Shown here in pieces: positions 2,383 through 13,771 of a DNA stretch of 49,058 nt (position 1 is its first letter; the number at the start of each line of letters is the position of its first letter). The position numbers and the translations under genes are program-made. Where the stretch lies: contig JAKOPZ010000079.1 in assembly GCA_029778615.1 (NCBI GenBank), positions 1 to 49,058 on the forward strand, in the 5' to 3' direction. A model generated the notes under the pieces. It saw nothing but the letters and a program-made list of their open reading frames with translations, did no database searches and had not been told where the DNA came from. Source of the DNA: Chloroflexota bacterium. Lineage in GTDB: Bacteria > Chloroflexota > Anaerolineae > UBA4142 > SHND01.

Positions 2383-3489
2383 ATGTCCGAACCATCCATT
2401 TGGGAACACATGCAGCAACAAGGCGTCACGCGGCGGCAATTTATGCAAATCTGCGGCGTGATGGTGGGTGCAATGGGTTTGCGCGTTGCGCCGCCCGTGC
2501 GCGAAAGCGGCTTGCCCGCGCAAATGGCGCGCGGATACAGTCCCATCGCCACCGTCGCGCACGCGTTGCAAACGAAACCGCGCGTGCCCGTCATCTGGCT
2601 CGAATTTCAAGATTGCGCGGGCTGCTCGGAAGCGTTGACGCGTTCGCACAATCCCTCGCTCATTGACCTCGTGCTGCAATACATTTCGATTGATTATCAC
2701 GAAACGTTGATGGCAGCCGCAGGTTTTCAAGCCGAACAATCGAAACAAGACGCGATGAAAAAATACGCGGGACAGTACGTTCTCGTCGTCGAAGGTTCGA
2801 TTCCGTCCGCGCAAGATGGCGTGTACTGCACCATCGGCGGACGCAGCGCGGTGGATATTTTGAAAGAAGCGGCAGCGGGCGCGGCGGCAATTATTTCGAC
2901 GGGCAACTGCGCGGCGTTCGGCGGCATTCCGAAAGCGAAACCGAATCCGACGGACGCAAAAGGCGTTTGGGAAATCATCACCGATAAACCTGTTGTGAAC
3001 ATTTCGGGTTGTCCCGCGATTCCCGAAGCGACGACGGGAACGATTTTCAATTTCATCGTTTTCGGCGCGCTGCCCGAACTCGATTATTTGAATCGTCCCA
3101 AAACGTTTTACGCACAGACGATTCACGACCGCTGCTTGCGCCGCCCGTTTTACGAAGCGGGAAAATTCGCGGAATCGTTTGACGACGAAGGCGCGCGCAA
3201 AGGATATTGTCTGTACAAACTGGGCTGCAAAGGTCCGACGACATACAACGCGTGTGCGACGATGAAATGGAACAGCGGCTTGTCGTTCCCGATTCAAGCG
3301 GGGCATCCATGTCTCGGCTGCTCGGAACCAAATTTCTGGGACGGCGGCGGATTTTATCAAGGACAATCCGCGCCGCTTGACCGCCCGACCATTCTCGCGG
3401 CGGGCGCGGCGGCAGCGGTTGGCGTCGTCGCGGGCGCGGGGATTGCAATGGCGAATCGCGGACAAAAGAAAGGGACTGCGGGCGAATAG
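2383..3489 (+). CDS. hynS: [NiFe] hydrogenase small subunit, Tat-exported, C-terminally anchored
   Basis: This 368-residue electron-transfer subunit carries three Fe-S clusters. A Tat signal with twin Arg (R17, R18, TRRQF) leads it out of the cytoplasm. Proximal cluster ligands are C78, C81, C176 and C210. Distal ligands are H248, C251, C276 and C282. The medial 3Fe-4S ligands are C291, C310 and C313. A C-terminal hydrophobic helix at about 336-357 anchors it to the membrane. Downstream are a cytochrome b, an HdrD-like protein and the large subunit, the S-isp1-isp2-L order known from Isp-type (HynSL) hydrogenases. The stop codon lies inside the first copy of a 101-bp tandem repeat. Confidence 0.95.
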   Translation: MSEPSIWEHMQQQGVTRRQFMQICGVMVGAMGLRVAPPVRESGLPAQMARGYSPIATVAHALQTKPRVPVIWLEFQDCAGCSEALTRSHNPSLIDLVLQYISIDYHETLMAAAGFQAEQSKQDAMKKYAGQYVLVVEGSIPSAQDGVYCTIGGRSAVDILKEAAAGAAAIISTGNCAAFGGIPKAKPNPTDAKGVWEIITDKPVVNISGCPAIPEATTGTIFNFIVFGALPELDYLNRPKTFYAQTIHDRCLRRPFYEAGKFAESFDDEGARKGYCLYKLGCKGPTTYNACATMKWNSGLSFPIQAGHPCLGCSEPNFWDGGGFYQGQSAPLDRPTILAAGAAAAVGVVAGAGIAMANRGQKKGTAGE

Positions 3490-3877
3490 AATTCGCGGCA
3501 ACGCATGGCAAAACCGACCTTCGTCGGTTCAGTCAACGTAGGTTGACTTGACAATGGGTTGCTGCGGTTTGAACAACGGGCGAATAGAATTCGCAGCAAC
3601 GCATGGCAAATTCGACCTGTGTCGAATTCCAAGTCAACGTAGGTTGACTTGGCAATGGGTTGCTGCGGTTTGAACAACGGGCGAATAGAATTCGCAGCAA
3701 CGCATGGCAAATTCGACCTGTGTCGAATTCCAAGTCAACGTAGGTTGACTTGACAATGGGTTGCTGCGGTTTGAACAACGGGCGAATAGAATTCGCAGCA
3801 ACGCATGGCAAATTCGACCTGTGTCGAATTCCAAGTCAACGTAGGTTGACTTGGCAATGGGTTGCTGCGGTTTGAAC
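3480..3877 (+). repeat. Four tandem ~101-bp repeats with cloverleaf-like potential
   Basis: Units start at 3480, 3578, 3679 and 3780 (lengths 98, 101, 101 and ~98). Each holds GCGAAT-AGA-ATTCGC, a long-range pair GCAGCAAC...GTTGCTGC (unit 1 has a G-T pair here), an inner hairpin, and AGTCAAC-GTAG-GTTGACT. In unit 1 the inner hairpin is AACCGAC/GTCGGTT. In units 2-4 it is ATTCGAC/GTCGAAT, so two pairs changed on both sides. The array fills the gap between hynS and isp1. There are no spacers, so it is not CRISPR. Small reading frames across it are by-products. Confidence 0.9.
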
Positions 3878-3895
3878 CGCCACGCGAGGAAAACT

Positions 3896-4573
3896 ATGAA
3901 CTGGAGTGACATTCTCGAATTTGCGCGCGGTCCATTTTTTTACGCCGCGCTCCTCTTTTTCATCGCGGGCATGTTGTTTCGATTCACGCGCATTGTGTTG
4001 TTGGGATGGGGCAAGGACCGCGTGAAAAGTAAAGGCAGTAAACTCGGCGGCGTTGCCAAAACGTACGCCAAAGCGATTCTCGTCTGGCCCTTTATTCCGT
4101 GGGTGAAAAACACGTTCAACCGCAATCCCATCATTTACATCGCGGGCGGACTTTTTCATCTCGGCTTGTTCGTCGTGATTTTTCTCGGCGCGGCGCACAT
4201 GCTCGTATGGAAATCGCTCATCGGGTTCGGCTGGCCCACATTGCCGTTGCCGATTGTGGACTGGCTCGCGGCGGTGGCGATTATTGCGATGCTGATTCTG
4301 TTTGTAAATCGGCTCATCAATCCCGTACTGAAACTCATCAGCGGACCTGCCGAATGGTTGAACTTGCTCGTCGTGTTCTTGCCGATGGTGACGGGTTACA
4401 TGATGACGCATCATCTCTTTTTTCAATATGAGATGCTGTACAGCTTGCACATGCTCGCGGTGGACGCGTTGTTGATTTGGATTCCGTTGAGCCGCATTTC
4501 GCATTTCATGTTTTATTTTTTCTCGCGCACGATTCACGGCGCGCAATTTGGCAAACGCGCGGTGTCACCGTAA
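3896..4573 (+). CDS. isp1: Isp1: cytochrome b-like membrane subunit of the hydrogenase
   Basis: This 225-residue membrane protein resembles the gamma subunit of nitrate reductase and DsrM. About five membrane helices lie near 12-36, 79-101, 121-140, 156-173 and 182-209. Histidines H88, H101, H172/H173, H185 and H203 within or at the ends of helices are candidate heme b ligands. In Isp-type hydrogenases this subunit passes electrons from the periplasmic small subunit across the membrane to Isp2. ATG 3896 is chosen because GAGGA at 3886-3890 is well placed and the hydrophobic start follows. An upstream in-frame extension would run into the tandem repeats and is unlikely. The next gene starts 12 bases later. 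Confidence 0.9.
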   Translation: MNWSDILEFARGPFFYAALLFFIAGMLFRFTRIVLLGWGKDRVKSKGSKLGGVAKTYAKAILVWPFIPWVKNTFNRNPIIYIAGGLFHLGLFVVIFLGAAHMLVWKSLIGFGWPTLPLPIVDWLAAVAIIAMLILFVNRLINPVLKLISGPAEWLNLLVVFLPMVTGYMMTHHLFFQYEMLYSLHMLAVDALLIWIPLSRISHFMFYFFSRTIHGAQFGKRAVSP

Positions 4574-9679: not shown

Positions 9680-12174
9680 CGATGCTCCGAACGTTTCATG
9701 TGACCGGCGTCGTGCAAGGCGTCGGCTTTCGCCCATTCGTCTATCAATTGGCGACGCGCGCGGCGCTGCGCGGTTGGGTGATGAATACTTCGGCGGGCGT
9801 GGAGATTCAGGTTCAAGGCGACCTGTCCGCGCTCGAAAATTTCTCGCGTGCGTTGGTCAATGAAAAACCCCCGCTCGCGCGCATTGATTCCCTCTCGTTC
9901 GTTGATTCTCCCACAAACGGTCATTCTCTTTTTGAAAATTTTGAAATCCGCGCGAGTGTCGCGTTCGAAGGCGCATTTCAACCCATCTCGCCCGACATTG
10001 CGATTTGCGCCGATTGTTTGCGCGAATTGTTTGACCCCGCTGACCGCCGCTATCGTTATCCGTTCATCAATTGCACCAACTGCGGACCGCGTTTCACCAT
10101 CATTCAAGATATTCCGTATGACCGTCCGCAAACGACCATGCGCGATTTTGAACTGTGCGACGATTGCGCGCGCGAATATCACGACCCCATGAATCGCCGC
10201 TTTCACGCGCAGCCCGTCGCGTGCGCGAAATGTGGACCGCGTGTGTGGATGGAATATAGTAATCAGTTATCAGTGAGCAGTAATCAGTTATCAGTGAGCA
10301 GTAATCAGTTATCTGTGAACAGTAAGCAGTCTCCAGTCTCCAGTCCCCAATCTCTTCAAGACGACGCGATTTTCGCAACGCAACAACTTTTGGCGCACGG
10401 AAAAATTGTCGCGGTCAAAGGACTAGGCGGCTTTCATCTCGCGTGTGATGCGACGAACGCGGACGCGGTGAACCTTTTGCGCGAACGAAAACGGCGCGTG
10501 GAAAAACCATTCGCGTTGATGCTGCGCGATTTGGAAACAGTTGAACAGCATTGTTTTGTCAATGACGCGGAAGGCGAATTGTTGCAGTCGCGCGAGCGTC
10601 CGATTGTTTTATTGAAACGTCGTCCCGAATCAAATATCGCGCGCGAGGTTGCGCCGAATCAAGATACACTCGGCGTCATGCTGCCGTACACACCGTTACA
10701 TTGTTTGCTGATGGCAGATGGCAGATGGCAGACGGCAGATAGCACATTACGCGACGAGATACGAGATACGAGATGCGAGATGCCAACCGCGCTTGTTCTT
10801 ACGAGTGGAAACTTGAGCGAAGAACCTATCGCGTACACGAATGATGAGGCGCGCGAACGATTGGCAAAGCTCGCCGACGCGTTTTTATTGCACGACCGCG
10901 ACATTCATATTCGCACGGATGATTCGGTTGTGCGCGTGCTTTTCCCCTCTCCTAATAGGAGAGGGGGAGGGGGAGAGGTCTATCCCTTGCGTCGTTCGCG
11001 CGGGTACGCGCCGTTCCCTGTTCACTTGCCGTTCGATGCGCCGCCGATTCTCGCGGTGGGCGGCGAATTGAAAAATACCTTTTGCGTCACACGTGACCGT
11101 TACGCGTTCATGTCGCATCACATCGGCGATTTGGAAAATTACGAAACGCTGCGTTCGTTCGAGCAGGGCATCGCGCATTTTGAGAAATTGTTTCGCATTG
11201 CGCCGCAAGTGATTGCGTACGATTTGCATCCGAATTATTTGGCGACGCGTTATGCGTTGGAACGCGCGGCACGCGAAAACATTCGCGCAATCGGTGTGCA
11301 GCATCATCACGCGCACATCGCCGCGTGCATGGCAGAAAATGGTTTGGACGGAGCGCGCCCCGTCATCGGCGTTGCGTTCGACGGAACGGGGTATGGCGAC
11401 GACGGCGCGATTTGGGGCGGAGAATTTTTGATTGCCGATTATCGCGGCTATAAACGCGCGGCGCATCTCGCGTACGTTCCCTTGCCCGGCGGCGACAAAG
11501 CAACGCGCGAACCGTGGCGCATCGCGTTGGCGTACCTACAACGCGCGGGCGTCGAGTGGGGCGATGACCTTGCCCCCGTGCGCGCGGCGAACGAACACGC
11601 GCGGCGCATTGTGCAGCAGCAAATTGAACGCAACATCAACGCGCCGTTGACATCGAGCATGGGACGTTTGTTTGATGCCGTCGCGTCATTGATTGGAATT
11701 CGGCAAACGGTGAATTACGAAGCGCAGGCGGCGATAGAGTTGGAAGCGCTGGTAGATGACAATGAGAATGGCGCGTATGAGTGGGAGACTGGAGATTGGA
11801 GACTAGAGACTAGAGATTTGAGATTCGAGATTGATAGTTCGTCGTTGATTCGCGCGATTGTGGCGGATGTGCGCGCGGGAGTTTCCAGTTCCATTATCGC
11901 TGCGCGATTTCACAACAGCATCGCATTGATGACGCGAAATGTGTGTCGTGAGTTGCGCGAGGAATTTGGTTTGAACGAAATCGCGTTGAGCGGCGGCGTG
12001 TGGCAAAACATGACGCTGTTGCAAAAAACGCTTTCACTTTTGCGCGACGAAAATTTTATTGTGTATATTCATCGGCTTGTGCCGGCGAATGATGGCGGGA
12101 TTGCATTGGGGCAAGCGATGATTGCAAGTTTTCGTAGTAACGATTTTAATCGTTCCGCCGCCCCGAACGAATGA
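9676..12174 (+). CDS. hypF: Carbamoyltransferase HypF with repeat-encoded insertions
   Basis: HypF makes the thiocarbamate on HypE from carbamoyl phosphate and ATP, the precursor of the cyanide ligands. All domains are present: acylphosphatase (VQGVGFRPF near 14-22), two zinc-finger pairs (CADC, CTNCGPRF, CDDC, CAKCGPR), the YrdC-like domain (KGLGGFHLACDA) and the Kae1-like domain (HHHAHIAAC, FDGTGYGDDG, LSGGVWQN). At 832 residues it is longer than the usual 750-780. The excess is at four places whose DNA matches intergenic repeat families: residues ~195-226, ~346-370, ~423-431 and ~704-717. Each falls at a domain edge or loop. The last residues and the stop are encoded by a fifth element. 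The frame is intact, so the protein is probably functional. Confidence 0.95.
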   Translation: MTMLRTFHVTGVVQGVGFRPFVYQLATRAALRGWVMNTSAGVEIQVQGDLSALENFSRALVNEKPPLARIDSLSFVDSPTNGHSLFENFEIRASVAFEGAFQPISPDIAICADCLRELFDPADRRYRYPFINCTNCGPRFTIIQDIPYDRPQTTMRDFELCDDCAREYHDPMNRRFHAQPVACAKCGPRVWMEYSNQLSVSSNQLSVSSNQLSVNSKQSPVSSPQSLQDDAIFATQQLLAHGKIVAVKGLGGFHLACDATNADAVNLLRERKRRVEKPFALMLRDLETVEQHCFVNDAEGELLQSRERPIVLLKRRPESNIAREVAPNQDTLGVMLPYTPLHCLLMADGRWQTADSTLRDEIRDTRCEMPTALVLTSGNLSEEPIAYTNDEARERLAKLADAFLLHDRDIHIRTDDSVVRVLFPSPNRRGGGGEVYPLRRSRGYAPFPVHLPFDAPPILAVGGELKNTFCVTRDRYAFMSHHIGDLENYETLRSFEQGIAHFEKLFRIAPQVIAYDLHPNYLATRYALERAARENIRAIGVQHHHAHIAACMAENGLDGARPVIGVAFDGTGYGDDGAIWGGEFLIADYRGYKRAAHLAYVPLPGGDKATREPWRIALAYLQRAGVEWGDDLAPVRAANEHARRIVQQQIERNINAPLTSSMGRLFDAVASLIGIRQTVNYEAQAAIELEALVDDNENGAYEWETGDWRLETRDLRFEIDSSSLIRAIVADVRAGVSSSIIAARFHNSIALMTRNVCRELREEFGLNEIALSGGVWQNMTLLQKTLSLLRDENFIVYIHRLVPANDGGIALGQAMIASFRSNDFNRSAAPNE
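10258..10354. repeat. In-frame heptanucleotide array inside hypF (first)
   Basis: Three 21-bp units, each made of three heptamers (AGTAATC, AGTTATC, AGTGAGC), are followed by AGTCTCC-type heptamers. The protein shows the seven-residue repeat NQLSVSS. It lies between the second zinc finger and the YrdC-like domain. Confidence 0.9.
10711..10785. repeat. In-frame heptanucleotide array inside hypF (second)
   Basis: Five ATGGCAG-type heptamers (10711-10745) and four GATACGA-type heptamers (10758-10785) lie between PYTPLHCLL and ALVLTSGN. In HypF relatives these two segments are usually separated by only a few residues. Confidence 0.85.
10944..10966. repeat. Palindromic element inside hypF
   Basis: A perfect 10-bp inverted repeat, CCCCTCTCCT/AGGAGAGGGG, has a 3-nt loop and is followed by a G-rich stretch. 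It is nearly the same as the intergenic hairpin at 7668-7690. It encodes the extra PSPNRRGGGG residues before the LRRSRGYAPFP segment. Confidence 0.85.
11786..11834. repeat. In-frame heptanucleotide array inside hypF (third)
   Basis: Seven consecutive heptamers of the types AGACTGG, AGACTAG and AGATTTG give the odd WETGDWRLETRDLRFEI stretch in the Kae1-like domain. They are the same family as the spacers at 5849, 12493 and 13662. Confidence 0.9.
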
Positions 12175-12509: not shown

Positions 12510-12563
12510 AGGCTGCGCTTACGATACTCCAGTCTCCAATCTCTAATCTCCAATCTCTAAATC
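12493..12563. repeat. Heptanucleotide repeat spacer with inverted arms (hypC-hypD)
   Basis: TGGAGAC-type heptamers (12493-12513) carry the hypC stop. After a 14-nt core, TCCAATC-type heptamers (12528-12563) run to the hypD start. The arms are complementary, and no ribosome binding site is visible for hypD. Confidence 0.85.
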
Positions 12564-13664
12564 ATGAAATACATTACCGAATACCGCGATGCAAAACTCG
12601 TGCACGGCGTGTTGGAAGAAATTCGCCGCACGGTCACGCGTCCGTGGACGTTGATGGAAATTTGCGGCGGACAAACGCACGCGATTGTGCGACATGGGAT
12701 TGACCAACTCTTGCCGCGCGAGGTGGAGCTCGTTCACGGACCCGGCTGCCCCGTGTGTGTGACGCCGCTTGAATTGATTGACAAAGCGTTGGCGATTGCG
12801 TCGCGTCCCGATGTGATTTTCACGTCGTATGGCGACATGCTGCGCGTACCGGGCAGCGGACGCGATTTGTTTTCGATTCGCGCGAATGGCGGCGATGTGC
12901 GCGTGGTGTATTCGCCGCTCGACGCGGTAAAAATCGCGCAGCAAAATCCTGACAAGCAAGTGGTGTTTTTCGCGATTGGTTTTGAAACGACCGCGCCCGC
13001 AAACGCGATGAGTGTGGTGCAGGCAAAAGCATTGGGCGTAAAAAATTTTTCGATTCTCGTTTCGCACGTGTGCGTGCCGCCCGCGATGCACGCGATTTTG
13101 AGTTCGTCAGTCAATCGCGTGCAAGGTTTTCTTGCAGCGGGACATGTGAACGCGGTGATGGGCTATTGGGAATATCCGCCGCTCGCGGAAAAATATCACG
13201 TGCCGATTGTGGTGACGGGTTTTGAGCCGCTGGACATTGCGCAAGGAATTTTGGTCGCGGTGCAAATGTTGGAGCAAGGCCGCGTCGGCGTGGAAAACGC
13301 GTACGCGCGCGCGGTGACGCGCGACGGCAATTTGCCCGCGCAGCAAGTGATTGACCAAGTGTTTGAATTGTGTGACCGCAAATGGCGCGGCATTGGAACG
13401 ATTCCGCTGAGCGGCTGGCGCTTGCGTCCCGCATACGCGGAATTCGATGCCGAGTCGCGCTTTGATGTTTCCAATATCGAAACGAACGAATCGCCCTTGT
13501 GCATTGCGGGACAAATTTTGCAAGGTTTGAAAAAACCACACGACTGTTCTGCGTTCGGAACACTTTGCACGCCCGAACATCCGCTCGGCGCGACAATGGT
13601 TTCCAGTGAAGGCGCGTGCGCGGCGTATTACAAATATGGGAGACACATGATTTTGGAAAATTAG
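12564..13664 (+). CDS. hypD: Hydrogenase formation protein HypD
   Basis: This 366-residue Fe-S scaffold is where, with HypC, the Fe(CN)2CO group is built. Conserved motifs are all visible: [10 protein letters not shown] at 32-41, GPGCPVC at about 56-62, the IGFETTAP segment and C-terminal cysteines in [15 protein letters not shown] and near the end. Length is typical. The ATG is preceded by heptamer repeats and lacks a Shine-Dalgarno sequence. The stop codon TAG is part of the next heptamer array, so the gene lies between two repeat arms. Confidence 0.95.
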
Positions 13665-13771
13665 AGACTAGAGATTAGAGACTAGAGATTGAAAAATTGT
13701 TGACCCAAATATGGTACGGAATCTGCCTTCTTTAGTCTCCAGTCTCCAGTCTCTAGTCGTTAATCTCAACC
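13662..13771. repeat. Heptanucleotide repeat spacer with inverted arms (hypD-hypE)
   Basis: Four TAGAGAC/TAGAGAT heptamers (13662-13689) start with the hypD stop codon. A 43-nt unique core is followed by five TAGTCTC-type heptamers (13733-13767), four bases before the hypE ATG. Confidence 0.85.

Follow-up and report, generated by a model that had tools for sequence, protein, structure and literature searches.

The closest described systems to the repeats reported here are the REPIN and BIME families with their RAYT transposases (PMC2817692, PMC3116915, PMC8266576). Many REP families prefer heterodimers, a preference with no obvious explanation, and the CGTC-tagged REPs were reported without a dedicated transposase (PMC3733652). 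A stabilising effect on the mRNA upstream of them has been reported for the REPs of E. coli (reviewed in PMC12306157). Among the transposases, TnpAY1 subclass 1.2, which has Y---Q--HH as its signature and a conserved C-terminal domain of its own, was listed without REPs and mostly from Cyanobacteria and Bacteroidetes (Quentin et al. 2018, PMC6006769, Table 1), and the automatic REP search of that study required a GT[AG]G foot. In this study, we analysed a window of 49,058 nucleotides from a Chloroflexota bacterium (contig JAKOPZ010000079.1, positions 1 to 49,058), in which four tandem units lie between the hydrogenase genes hynS and isp1. We read the four units as REPIN-type doublets that together form a BIME-like tandem cluster, belonging to a new family with a non-classical transposase partner and inserted here in a lineage-specific manner, and we put the probability of this reading at roughly 0.83.

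The array at the hynS/isp1 junction

A four-unit repeat between hynS and isp1 had been noticed in a preliminary description of this DNA and is confirmed by Tandem Repeats Finder (3479-3877, period 101, 4.0 copies, 96% matches). The array covers 3480-3881 with units of 98-102 bp (Table 1), its end being moved to about 3881, where a fourth hairpin that has been lost from the inner units closes unit 4. Each unit folds as first described, with a short hairpin at the 5' side followed by a long stem around two hairpins, and does so far better than shuffled sequences, both as DNA (z -5.3 to -8.0) and as + strand RNA (z -4.3 to -6.2). The unit is an inverted doublet of a two-hairpin half-element of about 51 nt, and the full element is symmetrical: hairpin, stem arm and hairpin, then again hairpin, stem arm and hairpin. 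The arrangement with the terminal hairpin recurs in other copies in the genome. An Rfam search of the window gave zero matches.

Table 1. Features at the hynS/isp1 junction, in window positions
Feature	Position	Strand	Remarks
hynS	2383..3489	+	exported NiFe hydrogenase small subunit; TIGR00391, PF14720/PF01058; last codons altered by the insertion
unit 1	3480..3577	+	doublet, inner-hairpin stem AACCGAC; left half 70.4 bits (covariance model)
unit 1 half-elements	3480-3530; about 3531-3577	+; -	
5' hairpin GCGAATAGAATTCGC	3482-3496	+	counterpart of the terminal hairpin GCGGTTTGAACCGC
hynS stop TAG	3487..3489	+	supplied by the element edge; within unit 1
unit 2	3578..3678	+	doublet, stems ATTCGAC / AGTCAAC; 75.9 bits
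unit 3	3679..3779	+	doublet, one base different from unit 2
unit 4	3780..3881	+	complete doublet with terminal fourth hairpin
unit 4 right half	3833-3882	-	58.9 bits
terminal hairpin GCGGTTTGAACCGC	3867..3880	+	kept by the last unit only; 3' counterpart of the 5' hairpin
GAGG	3886..3889	+	likely isp1 ribosome-binding site, predicted from sequence; intact right of the insert
isp1	3896..4573	+	membrane anchor subunit; TmcC/HmcE-like, under the cut-offs of those models

The gap between hynS and isp1 is 406 nt here. In the two species whose HynS is closest to this one (78% and 75%) the junction is empty, with 2 and 9 nt between the genes. The hynS stop codon lies within the first unit, as had been pointed out, and the last residues of HynS are changed in comparison with these two orthologues; about ten other edges of the family also give a stop codon to an upstream open frame. 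Because the junctions of the two closest hydrogenase operons are empty, the array is an insertion specific to this lineage, placed where one gene meets the next, rather than a built-in control switch: a doublet would have landed at the junction in this lineage and would later have been amplified in tandem.

The preliminary description had suggested that the array could control the ratio of the hydrogenase subunits. It would then be a post-transcriptional device of the operon, like the E. coli malE-malF REPs: by protecting upstream mRNA or attenuating transcription, its hairpins would let HynS outnumber Isp1 and the subunits encoded further downstream. The location of the array in a 406-nt gap within a single operon, the stability of its units as RNA (folds of -39 to -46 kcal/mol each) and the mRNA stabilisation reported for E. 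coli REPs (PMC12306157) are consistent with such a device, which we nevertheless consider unlikely: the repeat is found all over the genome, the closest orthologous operons are without the insert, HynS must assemble with HynL, which is encoded downstream, and the imperfect pairs of the family (see below) give no sign of constraint on one RNA strand. A role in subunit ratio is thus unsupported, and an operon-specific regulatory RNA was rejected as the primary reading in view of the genome-wide copies and the empty orthologous junctions. An effect of the array on hydrogenase mRNA or on the HynS level is possible, albeit unproven, and would be incidental.

Two further observations concern the window. 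Between 818 and 9257, the neighbours of the hydrogenase genes encode two DsrE-like proteins, a GcvH/lipoate-binding-like protein, a lipoate ligase and a HycI-type protease, an arrangement that suggests a link to a sulfur-carrier system. Short tandem repeats with a 7-bp period (AGTAATC, GGAGATT, ATTAGAGACTAGAG) occur at 10258-10330, 11784-11833, 12533-12560 and 13660-13690, and resemble the heptamer repeats carried by some cyanobacteria.

Dispersed copies with paired stems and fixed loops

One array unit has 58 BLAST matches in its own genome, and at least 147 halves in these 6.0 Mb are recovered with a model of the half-element (A2, model R1), which spans 51 nt and two hairpins; both counts are lower bounds. 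Tandem arrays break assemblies, and therefore copy number is underestimated; the end of C184 and the start of C311 (L013, L025) both break inside what is apparently one tandem array. Copies occur as single halves (C318, C266, C204, C192, C264), as arrays (C176, C182, C184/C311, C236, C158, C264) and as inverted doublets, of which there are 54 among 150 aligned halves in the matches listed. With its inverted doublets, many dispersed copies and tandem clusters, the family is a repeat of the REPIN/BIME type in the broad sense. Elsewhere, 38-66 halves are found in four of the five other species of the genus, and none in the fifth with the half-element model. The half-element is present in 22 of 40 relatives, own genome included, and has matches in 37 of 249 class genomes.

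In an alignment of 132 distinct own copies, fitted to the half-element model, pairing is kept in 97.9% of stem cells, double changes number 324 as against 95.5 in shuffles, and changes occur on both sides in 12 of 13 pairs; when the partner is slid by one base, pairing falls to 26-39%. A MAFFT seed alignment agrees (98.8% paired), and copies from other genomes, which have other stem sequences, are 97.8% paired with 239 doubly changed cells versus 66. The inner 7-bp stem alone exists in 19 fully paired versions. The stems are free while the loops are fixed (CTNC; GA/NGA), and in the CTNC inner loop C, T and C are 86-97% fixed and the third base is random. Selection on structure, for which the preliminary description had argued, is strongly supported, as the changes in copies recovered genome-wide by the covariance-model search are compensated and not random. 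Imperfect pairs are of the G-T type in 22 cases and of the A-C type in 15 (p 0.32), and because the two are about equally frequent, there is no sign of selection on one RNA strand; RNA-strand-specific selection was rejected for want of a significant G-T excess.

The two halves of a doublet carry unequal stems. Doublets with two identical inner stems number 0 of 52 distinct ones in the own genome (expected 5.8, P 0.002) and 0 of 35 in other genomes (expected 2.6, P 0.06). With unequal stems, the halves cannot anneal to each other as a single long hairpin, and the fold is held to two lobes; protection against hairpin nucleases and a need of the transposase are both candidate reasons and may underlie the rule. 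A stricter rule, with G-C in one half and A-T in the other at stem position 2, was rejected, since it holds nearly always in the own genome but in only 13 of 35 doublets elsewhere; the weaker rule that the stems are never identical holds in both.

Within the array, the inner hairpin of unit 1 differs from that of units 2-4 at two positions of its 5' arm (AC to TT), and the opposite arm has changed to match. The first account of these positions was exact, but they are part of a cluster: units 1 and 3 show nine aligned differences, eight of which fall inside a 21-nt stretch (P 2e-4) that takes in the inner hairpin with its loop and the spacer. Because these differences cluster, a cassette swap is favoured over two independent compensated mutations, which were rejected, and the unit 1 difference looks as though an entire hairpin cassette had been exchanged. 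At one site, A is common to units 1 and 3 and G to units 2 and 4. A two-unit block that was duplicated, followed by a later exchange of the hairpin cassette, is a history that we infer from these patterns.

Template switching or gene conversion, by copying arms and swapping cassettes, could produce compensated changes even without selection. Besides the 21-nt hairpin stretch that holds almost all differences between units 1 and 3, the rarity of one-sided stem changes and the fact that alternative stems mostly differ at several pairs simultaneously are in favour of this process. Arm copying alone, however, fails on the fixed loops with their random third base, on the absence of doublets with identical stems in either set, and on the recurrence of the same two loops beside distant transposases (see below). 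We thus regard an origin without selection as possible but doubtful; arm copying or conversion may well operate together with selection.

An IS200-like transposase flanked by the repeats

Contig C94 carries, in single copy, a gene for an IS200-like HUH transposase (PF01797, Y1_Tnp, E 3.6e-22) that lies between complete doublets (L009, 817-918 and 1400-1502); the gene itself occupies L009:922-1386 on the - strand, and its homologue in L183 has 70% identity. Copies also adjoin the transposase in 10 of 10 class genomes having a homologue of at least 57% identity, and these ten are all within the 37 repeat-positive genomes (hypergeometric P 1.7e-9); the homologue-bearing genomes checked for adjoining copies were retrieved independently. 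Beside the closest homologues the copies are mostly on both sides (L183, L184, L185/G002, L186, G018, G019, G014, G051, G158, G252, G080, G102, G075, G242, G236), and a homologue of 60% identity (L187) has weak matches only. From the density of 147 half-elements per 6.0 Mb, about 0.015 would be expected per 600 bp. The REPtron organisation, that is, an HUH transposase gene flanked by repeats, is therefore present in C94 and in the class genomes with close homologues. The hairpin-handling DNA mechanism that had been raised as an alternative source of the variants gains support from the position of the repeats on either side of an HUH transposase of the IS200-like type. Of the 37 repeat-positive class genomes, 27 have no transposase that reaches 57% identity, which could reflect incomplete assemblies, loss or another mobiliser.

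Two other loci deserve mention. In L238 (G236; 900-2300), long tandem arrays of the doublet, with a 182-bp period, lie on both sides of a transposase gene whose reading frame looks cut short. In G000, C192 (L047:1200-2700) carries another transposase of subclass 1.2, with about 36% identity and with hairpin repeats of a different kind (GCGATTNNAAATCGCCGTCTGAAAAAA) at its flanks; with only about six mostly local copies of these in the genome, a dedicated dispersed family for this transposase was rejected.

The C94 protein contains YIANQKKHH (Y---Q--HH), NHTH and WQ, and is likely a member of TnpAY1 subclass 1.2, as judged from motifs and a tree built without the 2018 reference set. It matches NF033573 at 60.1 bits (cut-off 55) and IS608 TnpA with an E value of 1.2e-6. 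Y---Q--HH occurs in nearly all homologues and in none of four control IS200 transposases, which come from plasmids and three of which are beside TnpB or a transposase gene. The maximum-likelihood tree unites the repeat-flanked transposases in one group (support 92/70) and places the four controls outside the subclass 1.2 branch (100/99). A model-free test found repeats common to the upstream and downstream flanks of most subclass 1.2 genes with z above 8, as compared with at most 2.1 for the four controls. Beside more distant members of the subclass the stems differ and the loops recur: CTNY/RNAG tetraloops are found in 32 of 86 flanks (controls: 0 of 8 and 2 of 63), and loops of GA or TGAA recur as well (hairpins of N runs were ignored as artefacts). 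The absence of REP-like sequences ascribed to subclass 1.2 does not hold for most of the members tested here. We propose that this single-copy transposase of subclass 1.2 is the likely mobiliser of the family. Each half-element presents two hairpins with fixed loops (GA/NGA, CTNC) on stems that vary freely as long as they pair, and the transposase would read these hairpins in single-stranded DNA, probably via the loops.

Among 74 own-genome clusters, 24 lie inside two MITE-like TIR elements and 50 are without such ends. The first element (TIRs TACTACTTTGTCA...TGACAAAGTAGTA) has many near-identical copies with one doublet each (L036-L042, L045, L046), and the second (GGGTGTAGTTCA...TGAACTACACCC) also bears doublets (L020, L021, L024, L029, L030, L034). 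These MITE-like elements, with one third of the own clusters, can move on their own, and because 24 of 74 clusters ride in them, part of the spread of the family is not due to the C94 transposase. At L040:620-900, the halves of another doublet are separated by a nested copy of the first MITE, and therefore the doublet came first there. That the repeats as a whole are non-autonomous passengers of DDE transposons (MITEs), with the IS200-like gene merely a neighbour at the landing site, would agree with the 24 clusters found within TIRs TACTACTTTGTCA or GTGTAGTTCA. We hold this to be very improbable, given the 50 clusters without MITE ends, the older doublet at L040, and repeats that flank the transposase genome after genome against an expectation of about 0.015 half-elements. 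Neither excision nor transposition of a copy was observed, and at family copies no target-site signature was found beyond a weak TTC in the left flank.

Comparison with known systems

A broader reading, on which we would lay even odds, is that subclass 1.2 forms a lineage apart among the single-strand transposases and has a type of dispersed repeat to itself, defined by two loops (GA/NGA, CTNC) and not by a GTAG foot. Only loops and pairing would matter in it, stems would evolve by compensation or arm copying, and doublets would keep unlike stems and so two lobes. A transposase subclass thought to be without a DNA partner gains a concrete and testable one, and since this REP-like family stands outside the GTAG rule for finding REPs, such families have probably been missed elsewhere. 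With fixed loops on free, compensating stems, it becomes possible to test which features of a hairpin are read by a single-strand transposase, and the unequal-stem rule opens a way to test why REP dimers favour unlike partners, a preference with no obvious explanation (PMC3733652).

The IS200/IS605 elements share with the system described here the transposase superfamily and subterminal hairpins, whereas there is no TnpB beside the C94 gene, no multi-copy identical IS, and the repeats far outnumber the gene. The likeness to TnpAY1 subclass 1.2 (PMC6006769) comprises Y---Q--HH, HuH, WQ, a length of about 148 aa, low copy number and occurrence also in Bacteroidota. Unlike in the 2018 listing, most members tested here are flanked by paired hairpin repeats, and members are found in Chloroflexota, Armatimonadota and Planctomycetota. 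The CGTC-tagged REPs (PMC3733652) differ in their terminal CGTC tag and CCA tail, both absent here, but are similar in stem length (8-9 bp, 7 here), loop length (4-5 nt, 4 here), inverted dimers, common heterodimers and absence of GTAG. In comparison with REPIN/BIME and RAYT systems, the present family has two hairpins per half-element, no GT[AG]G foot, and conserved loops instead of a conserved foot or stem; the final 6 nt of the left flank contain GTAG, GTGG or GGAG in only 2 of 132 distinct copies. Unlike RAYT (TnpAREP, class 2), the C94 protein is without the motif NP(L/V)(R/K)xG and has no match to NCBIfam REP_Tyr_transpos (NF047646). Nevertheless, like the E. coli Y-Z2 BIMEs and the Pseudomonas GI REPINs, the family consists of inverted doublets in tandem clusters and many dispersed copies, with compensated stem changes and with the repeats lying to either side of a single-copy HUH transposase gene.
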